From a virus, in IMG/VR virus record IMGVR_UViG_3300007516_000197, positions 1-20,477 of that record: DNA of 20,477 bases. One strand, given 5' to 3'. Below, piece after piece: positions 5,680-9,574 of the stretch. A program made the position numbers and the translations under genes. The notes under the pieces are model-generated. The model saw nothing but the letters and a program-made list of their open reading frames with translations. It was not told the DNA's origin and made no database searches. The stretch's first letter is position 1. Every line of letters starts with the position of its first letter.

Positions 5680-5726
5680 AATAAACGAGTCTTGATAATT
5701 TAGAAGTTAATCAAGACTCGTTTATT
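5680..5726. terminator. Bidirectional terminator, 17-bp stem
   Basis: AATAAACGAGTCTTGAT (5680-5696) pairs perfectly with ATCAAGACTCGTTTATT (5710-5726) around a 13-nt loop. It lies between the convergent genes ending at 5666 (+) and 5762 (-). Both flanks are A/T-rich in the right sense, so it can stop transcription from either side. Confidence 0.85.
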
Positions 5727-7199: not shown

Positions 7200-9574
7200 A
7201 TGTCTATTACAACTACTAGTTCATTGCCGGCACCGGTACAACAATCATTTAGTTATAAATTATTGAGTGTCCCAGTTCCTAATATGATTCATAAAATACC
7301 TGCGATGTTGAAGCAAATGCCTCGCAATGGTGGTACAACTTTACGTATGCGTAGATATAATCCTCTTGCGGTTGCAATGGTACCACTTGGAAATTCAGGT
7401 ATTACTCCTCCAGCGCAAAATTTAACAGCAATTGATATTGATGTTAAATTAAGTTTCTACGGTTTTAACTAGGTGCCGTAGTCTGGTTCTGTCATTTAGA
7501 CCTACGTAATCCTTAATGAACAGGTTACGTTACAGAATCAGGATCCCGTTAAGTGAAAGCGGGATTAAAACCTGCCCTAATTGACTTGGAAGCCTAAGGC
7601 GAAAGCTATGGTGACAAGGGCCAAGGACTAGTAAAGCTATTAGTCCAGGCTGAACGACTTAACGGGCGGGGACTCTTACTTACAAGAGTCATGCGAAAGT
7701 CTGAACAATATTCGAAAGATATTGAGGCGAATCCGAAGAGGTTTGCCCGCCACGTAAGTGGTCATAAAAGTAACAGAATGTTTAAATGAATGTGCAGCCA
7801 GATTAGGAGTTTCACTCCGTCAAACAGAAGATCAGTTAACTCGTGACATGTTGGCTTCAACAGCTGCGTTCATTAACTGTACTGCTGGTGTTAACGGTAG
7901 AATTGTTGCCGTTGTAAAATCTCTTTTAATTGACTTGAAGTCCGAAGTGGCATTATTGCTAACCGGTAACAAGGCGCAAGCAAGCGTAAGCTGTGCAGCG
8001 TGAACGACTAAACAAAGAGACTCGTCATAGAATTATGATGAGATGCGATAGTACTGATCTCATGGGATAACCATGAGAGGTGACAGAAATGGTCATCCGC
8101 TTTAATGCTTAGAATTGCCTTTAAGGTTTAACAGATGAATAGTTTTTACAATGTCTTCTCTTTTATTGATGACTTCGGCATAGGAAGATCTAAATTCTTC
8201 AGTATGTCGAGCTCCACCATTTTTGAGAGTTGTATTGTAAAATTCAATGAGTTTTTCAAGAACAGGCTTTTTATGTTTGATGAATGGATGAATTTTATGC
8301 AATATCTTAGAAAGAGCATTTCCGGAGAGTCTCCAGCACAGTTGGTTTCTTCTCCCGTATCCTTTGCTGATTCTATTGATAAAGTTTATATGTCCTCCGA
8401 ATCTTTCAAGAAGCCATTTGAAAACTGGCGCTTTTGTATTATTGAGTTGCAGCATTATCTTGTAAGTATAATTAGGGTTATTTTTAGGTTTGTATTTGCT
8501 AATTCCAAGACAACATTCAGCATCTATAAATCCAGCAAGGTATGCATAATCTTCTTCAGATGGATTAATAGTGCTTTTGGATGGAGTAAAAATATCTTTA
8601 TGATGTTTCGAAACCAAATTACAACTATCTTTTTTAAGCCTAATATCCAAAAACAATCGTTCTTTTTCTTTGATATCTTGAACATTTGCAAATTGTTGAA
8701 ATATAGAAAGCTCTTCTTTCTTTTCGACAATATATATCTTTATCAGATCACAAAGATTAAGAGCATTTTGTTTTCTTATCGTAAGATAATGAAGTGGTTT
8801 ATGGTCCAGGATTGCTTTCTGAGAAAATATAGACCCTCCAAATTGATCCTTAAATACTTTAAGAACCTCAATGTTTACAGAAGAAATATTTATAGAGACA
8901 TTATATTTTGGTGTTATTTTGTTTTTTGTGTTAGACTTACCAATGAAGAAACACCCGTCTCCATCGATATATCCAGCTGCGTATGCGGCGTCAAATTTAT
9001 TCATTATGTTAAAATTATATGTTCTTATAGCGCTAAAGTCAATAAAGTAACAGATTCGGACAATCCTACAGAATTAACACGTTCTGATGTTGATGATGTT
9101 GTGCGTGCTCTTTTAGGAGCTAACGCGTATACCATCCTTGATAACATTGAAGGTGAAGATAAATTTGGTACAGCGCCTGTTCGTGATGCGTATTTTGCGC
9201 TTACACATACAGATATGACCAAAGATTTGGATGCTGTTGATGGATTCATTCAGAAGAATCAATATCCTTCACCTATGAATGCGTTGCGTTCTGAGTGGGG
9301 TGCTATTGGTAACCTTCGTTTCCTAGTTTCATCTATTGGTTCTATTACAAAAAATGCTTCAAATCTGAACTCTGATGTGTATAACATCTTCTGTGTAGGT
9401 ATGGAAGCTTATGCTTGTATTGAGCAAGATGGATATTCAGCTCAATTTATCTATAGACCACCGGTTTATGATGGACCATTAGCCCTTAATGCGTCAGTCG
9501 GTTACAAGTTTTCAGAAGCGCCTCGCATTCTCAATGACCTTTGGGTATTGAATTTGCGTTCAACTTTAAGTTAA
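7200..9574 (+). CDS. Major capsid protein (N4-gp56 family), split by three introns
   Basis: The gene is in four exons: 7200-7463, 7500-7549, 7781-7898 and 9059-9574 (264 + 50 + 118 + 516 nt), rejoining to 315 codons plus stop. The product is the coat protein that builds the capsid shell. Exon 1 begins MSITTTSSLPAPVQQSFSYK and ends SFYG. The 50-nt exon 2 encodes TYVILNEQVTLQNQDP. Exon 3 encodes LNECAARLGVSLRQTEDQ through TAGVNG. Exon 4 runs from DNPTELTRSDVDD to the end. Junctions were fixed by family resemblance and independently by group I pairing: each 5' exon ends in U paired with G, and each intron ends in G. AAGGA precedes ATG 7200. Unspliced, translation stops at TAG 7470, giving a 90-residue fragment. 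The coat call is strong; removal of the first 36-nt interruption is inferred. Confidence 0.9.
7464..7499 (+). other. 36-nt coreless group I-like intron in capsid gene
   Basis: This insertion separates GGT (7461-7463) from ACC (7500) in the capsid frame and contains TAG three times in frame (7470, 7479, 7497). Exon bases CTACGGT (7457-7463) pair with GCCGTAG (7475-7481) as a 7-bp P1 whose last pair is U7463.G7475, the hallmark of a group I 5' splice site. The five bases just upstream, TAGGT (7470-7474), pair with the first bases of exon 2, ACCTA (7500-7504), as P10, and the insertion ends in G7499. Only 18 nt remain after P1, so no P3-P8 core can fit. A second small hairpin (7485-7490 with 7498-7502) spans the 3' junction. 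It could be trans-spliced, a deletion relic, or an assembly artefact. Confidence 0.7.
7550..7780 (+). ncRNA. Group I intron, 231 nt, no ORF
   Basis: Exon bases ATCCCGT (7543-7549) pair with GCGGGAT (7559-7565) as P1, with U7549.G7559 at the splice site. The 3' exon TTT (7781-7783) pairs with AAA (7556-7558) as a short P10, and the intron ends in G7780. An R-like element CTGAACGACTTAAC (about 7650-7663) and S-like ATGCGAAAGTCTGA (7691-7704) supply P7 through GACT/AGTC. GGACTA/TAGTCC (7625-7645) forms a P6-type stem. It has no reading frame. Its 3' end AAAGTAACAG and the segment TAATTGACTTG recur in the next intron, so the two are related. Splicing restores the capsid frame as GT|T Val, then LNECAAR. 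Confidence 0.88.
8102..9004 (-). CDS. LAGLIDADG homing endonuclease, antisense within intron
   Basis: A 300-residue, two-motif (monomeric) LAGLIDADG enzyme. Motif 1 is AAGYIDGDG at residues 9-17, with Asp16 as likely metal-binding acid. Motif 2 is LAGFIDAEC at 156-164, with Glu163. The linker of about 140 residues and the overall length are normal for the monomeric class, and both acids are retained, so it is probably active. These enzymes cut intronless alleles so that repair copies the intron in. It is encoded antisense to the capsid gene, so translating it cannot interfere with intron folding in the capsid transcript. No Shine-Dalgarno sequence precedes ATG 9004, but a strong promoter lies so close that the message should be nearly leaderless. 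The family is common in organelles and archaea and, as far as I know, infrequent in phages. Confidence 0.92.
   Translation of the reverse strand: MNKFDAAYAAGYIDGDGCFFIGKSNTKNKITPKYNVSINISSVNIEVLKVFKDQFGGSIFSQKAILDHKPLHYLTIRKQNALNLCDLIKIYIVEKKEELSIFQQFANVQDIKEKERLFLDIRLKKDSCNLVSKHHKDIFTPSKSTINPSEEDYAYLAGFIDAECCLGISKYKPKNNPNYTYKIMLQLNNTKAPVFKWLLERFGGHINFINRISKGYGRRNQLCWRLSGNALSKILHKIHPFIKHKKPVLEKLIEFYNTTLKNGGARHTEEFRSSYAEVINKREDIVKTIHLLNLKGNSKH
9014..9042 (-). promoter_or_regulatory. Near-consensus antisense promoter for the endonuclease gene
   Basis: Read on the minus strand, TTGACT (9042-9037) and TATAAT (9019-9014) are separated by exactly 17 bases, one mismatch from the sigma70 consensus. 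Transcription should start near 9007, three or four bases before the endonuclease ATG at 9004. The promoter lies inside the 3' end of intron 3, so the element carries its own expression signal. Confidence 0.75.

Follow-up and report, generated by a model that had tools for sequence, protein, structure and literature searches.

A 36-nt coreless intron in a phage major head protein gene and the neighbouring group I core that probably excises it

The major head protein gene of IMG/VR virus record IMGVR_UViG_3300007516_000197, a stretch of 20,477 nt (20.5 kb; hereafter the window) in which portal, capsid and other structural genes are present, is interrupted by a 36-nt insert (7464 to 7499, + strand). 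The insert carries the splice elements of a group I intron but has no room for a catalytic core. We consider it very probable that this insert is an intron without a core of its own that is tethered to the core of its neighbour, here the full-length intron 2, and cut out by it, so that one ribozyme would handle two introns. It probably represents a class of natural introns of phage capsid and portal genes that lack a ribozyme and are each tethered to and spliced by a neighbouring group I core, which would serve two introns in sequence; such a class would be a minimal natural counterpart of the separation of substrate and catalyst in the spliceosome. Architecture, covariation, tether geometry and association with a full intron were observed in the sequences, and excision by the intron 2 core is what we infer.

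Splice elements of the 36-nt insert

The capsid gene (PHROG 1357) is read in four exons on the + strand. Exon 1 (7200 to 7463; PHROG 1357, E=1.3e-7; uninterrupted homologues available) ends with SFYG, the last codon being GGT. The mini-intron follows with three in-frame TAG codons (7470, 7479, and 7497), and the reading frame resumes at ACC 7500 in a micro-exon of 50 nt (7500 to 7549; TYVILNEQVTLQNQDP followed by GT), which is contiguous in intron-less homologues. Together with the exons at 7781 to 7898 and 9059 to 9574, these segments join into a single major head protein of 315 aa, equal in length to that of the uninterrupted relative L004.

The exon strand CTACGGT (7457 to 7463) pairs with GCCGTAG (7475 to 7481) to form P1, whose last pair, U7463.G7475, lies at the splice site. 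P10 is formed by TAGGT (7470 to 7474) and ACCTA (7500 to 7504), the latter being the first 5 nt of the micro-exon. A single internal guide, TAGGT-GCCGTAG (7470 to 7481), thus supplies both helices, and the last intron base is a terminal G (omega G, 7499). A U.G-ended P1 at the 5' splice site, a P10 between guide and 3' exon, and a terminal G are group I characters. The P3-P8 core with the P7 guanosine site is missing, there being no room for it in 36 nt or in the 28 to 57 nt of the relatives. An Rfam search at the insert gave no match, and since an Rfam scan of the window returned no intron match even at E=1, the sequences of the intron family itself were used to define it.

The preliminary description of this DNA had placed a 36-nt break with three TAG codons between GGT 7463 and ACC 7500, together with a 7-bp U.G-ended P1, a P10 and a terminal G. 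All of these elements were found at those positions, and the recurrence of the same architecture in at least 74 distinct sequences is more than chance. The 36-nt observation is confirmed as real and not an artefact.

Recurrence and covariation in relatives

Eighty relatives were fetched by the C-terminal capsid exon. One of them (L002) had the same 36 nt as the window, and seven others had an insert of 30 to 40 nt exactly at GGT|ACN. The GGT|ACN inserts share the guide N'GT-GCCGTA and the final G. Although the extraction pattern demanded a final G, this base also ends all inserts found without that requirement (L003, L006, L019, L038, L057, L074, and L075). Pattern scans, in which the guide was fixed as GCCGTA/GCCATA and the P10 guide base was left free, then gave 100 loci with 74 distinct insert sequences of 28 to 57 nt, on phage contigs from many metagenomes (at least 74 distinct). 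The insert lengths modulo 3 were distributed as 18/26/30, and such mixed lengths indicate that the inserts are not translated.

The free P10 guide base was compared with the third position of the Thr codon ACN. The two were Watson-Crick partners in 74/74 inserts (GC 49, AT 11, CG 7, and TA 7), so the variable position of P10 is the synonymous position of the codon and all four pair types are used. In P1, a compensated form TATGGT/GTGCCATA, with TAT/ATA in place of TAC/GTA, was present in four capsid loci (L223, L230, L231, and L232). When 26 sequences were aligned, 94.3% of the cells of P1, P10 and the tail helix described below were paired, and eight pairs had changed on both sides. The covariation score of this alignment was 0.253, compared to 0.091 after shuffling (reached in 0/500) and 0.03 to 0.07 in slid registers.

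A search for the P1 loop without the 3' constraint gave many chance matches outside the capsid gene, which were discarded after translation. The P1 loop of the 53- to 57-nt mini-introns (L155, L158, L173, L176, L183, L189, L191, and L213) contains a hairpin, e.g., CTGC-TTAA-GCAG. The same mini-introns have an extra, apparently covarying helix (GGAGG/CCTCC, GCCAC/GTGGC, and GCTAG/CTAGC) between the P1 loop and the bases immediately preceding the 3' splice site.

A tail helix that ends beside the P1 of the next intron

The key feature of the mini-introns, which was absent from the preliminary description, is a tail following the guide and complementary to the micro-exon. In the window, the tail CTGGTTCTGT (7483 to 7492, + strand) pairs with ACAGAATCAG (7532 to 7541, + strand). 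This tether target directly abuts GATCCCGT (7542 to 7549, + strand), the exon strand of the intron 2 P1, whose guide is GCGGGATT (7559 to 7566). Judged from sequence and covariation, the tail anchors the mini-intron exactly where the intron 2 P1 begins. The energy of the tail duplex is -12.8 kcal/mol in L002, which is identical in sequence to the window; the mean over the relatives was -11.1 kcal/mol, compared to -4.3 kcal/mol for shuffled tails.

The spacing between the mini-intron and the next full intron falls into three classes: 26 nt (97-class), 48 to 50 nt (105-class, including the window), and 86 nt (117-class). In all three, the best tail target ended 6 to 9 nt (mode 8) before the 5' splice site of the next intron, at the start of the P1 strand of that intron, and this held for 67/70 tails. 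Shuffled tails hit the same target position in 72/2100 (3.4%), and tails set on the exons of other 97-class phages matched in only 14%. The three misses were L002, L185, and L133. The miss in L002 was due to an equal-scoring chance match further downstream; in another comparison, its best target was the expected one. In L191, which has an extra intervening intron, the tail skips this intron and targets the exon beside the following one.

As a separate observation, the 97-class introns of L108, L112, L215, and others have a long P1 loop in which part of the sequence (CTTGGTTTTGTAA, for example) can pair with the 3' exon TTACAAAACCAAG. This is the same exon segment that is targeted by the tails of the 105-class mini-introns.

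Association with full group I introns

Intron 2 (7550 to 7780, + strand) is a full group I intron of 231 nt without an open reading frame (ORF) and is the proposed catalyst for itself and the mini-intron. The consensus fold of its family contains P3, P4, P5, P6, P8, and P9, with 28 pairs that have changed on both sides. A group I core (P3, P4-P6, P8, and P9 with the R/S (P7) elements) is therefore present, and the GACTA and TAGTC segments are conserved. In L087, an Rfam RF00028 match (E=0.002, below the gathering threshold) combines the P1 of the mini-intron with the core of the neighbour.

A full group I intron lay downstream of every mini-intron with enough flanking sequence. In a set chosen without reference to mini-introns, a downstream full intron was present in 8/8 loci with a mini-intron and in 14/69 without one (Fisher p=1.5e-5). 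For the 97-class introns, 34 occurred with a mini-intron and 0 without, most of these loci having been collected by the mini-intron pattern. Three 97-class loci, at first scored as lacking a mini-intron, carry a different intron a few nucleotides further on. The intron seen in L269, L273, and L288 a few nucleotides past the 97 site (CACGCTT|) is a different, group I-like one with another core (TTACTGGGAAAACC).

One relative, L184, carries at the same site a full-length, endonuclease-bearing intron with the same guide and no neighbour; an intron of this type is likely the ancestral form of the mini-intron. The L184 intron also has a P1-loop hairpin resembling that of the 53- to 57-nt mini-introns.

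A scan of bacterial genome contigs for the intron family gave no match. In the Desulfovibrio phages PV062637 / OR395405, the unannotated segment 81310 to 81483 is 68% identical in DNA to the intron 2 core and may be a related intron carried by an isolated phage.

The same architecture at other sites

A detector that used structure only (P1, P10, G, and a tail ending beside the P1 of a full intron) was run on the family introns in all collected loci. It gave 59 hits in 265 introns, compared to 7 in 1325 shuffled runs; at a score of at least 38, the numbers were 57 and 1, respectively. Sites with unrelated guides were found in the portal gene (PHROG 156) at EQS|RWNQSNIDTLFYAG (L325, L371, and L400) and FQP|IEQSRWNQ (L401), and in the capsid gene at DVD|CRVRVY (L251 and L351). 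Further sites of this kind were DW|YGTY (L266) and FFG|TGC (L405). Uninterrupted homologues span the junctions of all these new sites; the weaker site DQEG|VLAW (L406 and L437) has no intron-less homologue across its junction. The lowest-scoring hit, in L375, gave no sensible spliced frame and was counted as false.

Separately, the capsid frame of L041 (2754 to 2880) contains about 4 surplus bases following SLR (TTACGCAAACTGAAG) that break it without any intron being present. This may be a sequencing error; L375 has a seemingly similar break at the same place.

A proposed route of excision by the intron 2 core

The following route would account for the mini-intron. In the manner of an ordinary group I intron, the guide folds back on exon 1 (P1) and extends to the next exon (P10); the tail pairs with the micro-exon and holds the mini-intron where the intron 2 P1 starts. 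The 5' end of the tail leads by 2 to 3 nt from the P1 of the mini-intron to the junction of the neighbour's P1 with its core. Given this geometry, the P1 of the mini-intron would sit where the neighbour's P1 normally enters, a reasonable position for a swap. The intron 2 core would first dock the mini-intron P1 instead of its own, and a guanosine would cut after GGT7463. G7499 would then fill the G site, exon 1 would attack at ACC7500, and the 36 nt would be released. The same core would afterwards dock its own P1 and splice intron 2 out. The mini-intron itself is most likely the descendant of a full intron at this site, its core having been lost once a neighbour could do the work. Its retention would render any loss of intron 2 lethal and would leave the occupied site inaccessible to homing.

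The preliminary description had read the insert as a guide-only intron using a shared ribozyme, and this reading is supported, having withstood every computational test tried, with the catalysis itself being presumptive. It had left the partner as intron 2, intron 3, or an intron elsewhere, acting in trans. Because the tail pairs beside the intron 2 P1, and this pairing tracks the partner in the relatives, intron 2 is favoured, acting from the same transcript.

Several points weigh against excision by a neighbouring core. The splicing is deduced from sequence rather than from RNA. Group I cores normally receive P1 covalently via J1/2-P2, and the docking of a second P1 from the same transcript, which is plausible, has no natural demonstration. 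About half of the sampled 105-class introns have no mini-intron, so the partner does not need it. In addition, the guide was fixed in the pattern scans, so most of the P1 conservation at the main site reflects the selection of hits, and the sequences are related, so the counts are not independent events.

Alternative explanations

The mini-intron could instead be a coreless intron that is cut in trans by whatever group I core the cell contains, be it that of intron 3, of an intron in another gene, or of an excised intron, the tail merely aiding the folding of the 3' splice site. We regard this as unlikely. P1, P10, and the terminal G alone do define a group I substrate, and engineered trans-excision ribozymes work in this way (PMC4094466). 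However, the tail target tracks the neighbour in three distance classes with a spacing of about 8 nt, and no mini-introns without a neighbour were found.

Very unlikely, in our judgement, is a tiny self-splicing intron that builds its active site with the exons, like the 63- to 75-nt Phialophora rDNA introns. These small introns have P1, P10, and a helix between mid-intron and 3' exon, and their splicing in vitro has been reported (PMC3160393). When Phialophora-type characters were sought in the mini-introns, pairing between mid-intron and 3' exon was found (the tail helix, 67/70), but P7 had no room after the guide in the 28- to 36-nt forms, and the last base was G instead of U. In the 28-nt mini-introns, only about 14 to 16 nt follow the guide, of which 9 to 10 are paired with the exon, leaving no space for P7. 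Moreover, flanking sequence of about 300 nt was required by the Phialophora introns, whose last base is U, and self-splicing leaves the association with a full neighbour unexplained.

That the insert is unspliced, and is passed by amber readthrough or ribosome bypass or serves as a route to a truncated capsid product, seems highly improbable. In the window, the insert length of 36 nt is divisible by 3, and TAG is the only stop codon that the insert contains. However, the lengths in the relatives fall in all modulo-3 classes, some relatives have TAA or a shifted frame, and a search of the window found no tRNA, suppressor or otherwise; amber readthrough or recoding was therefore rejected. Bypass of the T4 gene 60 type was rejected as well, since a gly-tRNA taking off at GGT would find no matching landing codon before ACN (TAG, TTG, ATG, and ACG occur there). 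The covariation also fits P1 and P10 exactly.

We give practically no credence to a full intron collapsed during assembly or to gene decay, the alternatives (collapse or a defective prophage) raised in the preliminary description. A full intron does occupy the site in L184, but the same phage was also assembled independently (99.77% identity, 20 mismatches) with the identical 36 nt, which excludes collapse. Compensatory changes among the at least 74 distinct inserts, the open and conserved spliced frames, and the negative scan of bacterial genome contigs for the intron family speak against both.

Comparison with known systems

The mini-introns share with group I introns the U.G-ended P1 formed with an internal guide, the P10 stacked on P1, and the terminal G; their neighbours are ordinary members of the group, and L184 has a full-length member at the same site. 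They differ in their size of 28 to 57 nt and in lacking a P3-P9 core and a G-binding site, so that they would need the core of another intron. The group III introns of Euglena chloroplasts have likewise lost catalytic domains and presumably rely on other introns, but they are derived from group II introns and use a different chemistry.

The rDNA introns of Phialophora, Porpidia, and Arthonia are 63 to 78 nt long and keep P1, P10, and a helix between mid-intron and 3' exon (PMC3160393). Like the mini-introns, these degenerate introns are tiny and pair their middle part with the 3' exon; unlike them, they reside in fungal rRNA genes, have a proposed P7 and a terminal U, and were reported to need no partner intron for splicing, although some 300 nt of flanking sequence had to be present (PMC3160393). 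In engineered spliceozymes and trans-excision ribozymes, one group I core cuts out a short foreign intron by means of P1 and P10-like contacts, but the guide is on the ribozyme rather than in the removed intron, and the action is in trans (PMC4094466). In Twort orf142 and engineered tandem pairs, two group I elements around a short exon interact; there, each element has a core and the short exon is not retained, whereas the micro-exon described here must stay (PMC10136302). The closest precedents are the degenerate fungal rDNA introns and the engineered spliceozymes. We found no report, in the open-licence literature, of natural coreless introns paired with the P1 of a neighbour.

Self-splicing introns have been assumed to bring their own catalyst, and a widespread set of introns made of a guide and a tether and served by a neighbour's core would, if true, depart from this. 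Nature would then show a step from self-splicing to a shared RNA catalyst, as proposed for the origin of the spliceosome. The mini-introns would be the shortest natural group I-type substrates. The same reading leads one to expect hidden interruptions of about 30 nt in exons, taken by annotation software for broken genes, and it suggests how mobile introns become impossible to lose.

Other features of the window

Searches with the major capsid protein (MCP) among isolated phages gave only distant relatives (less than 30% identity), so no cultured carrier is known here. Downstream of intron 2, the exon at 7781 to 7898 (+ strand) separates it from intron 3 (7899 to 9058, + strand), a full group I intron with a homing-endonuclease ORF (8102 to 9004, - strand; PHROG 5046, E=1.3e-34) that is antisense to the capsid gene. 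The last exon (9059 to 9574, + strand; PHROG 1357, E=1.1e-13) includes the stop codon. A mir-95 match in the window was a weak chance match to an inverted repeat between genes and is irrelevant to the intron. This near-perfect 20-bp repeat (5680 to 5726) lies between convergent genes and is probably a two-way terminator.
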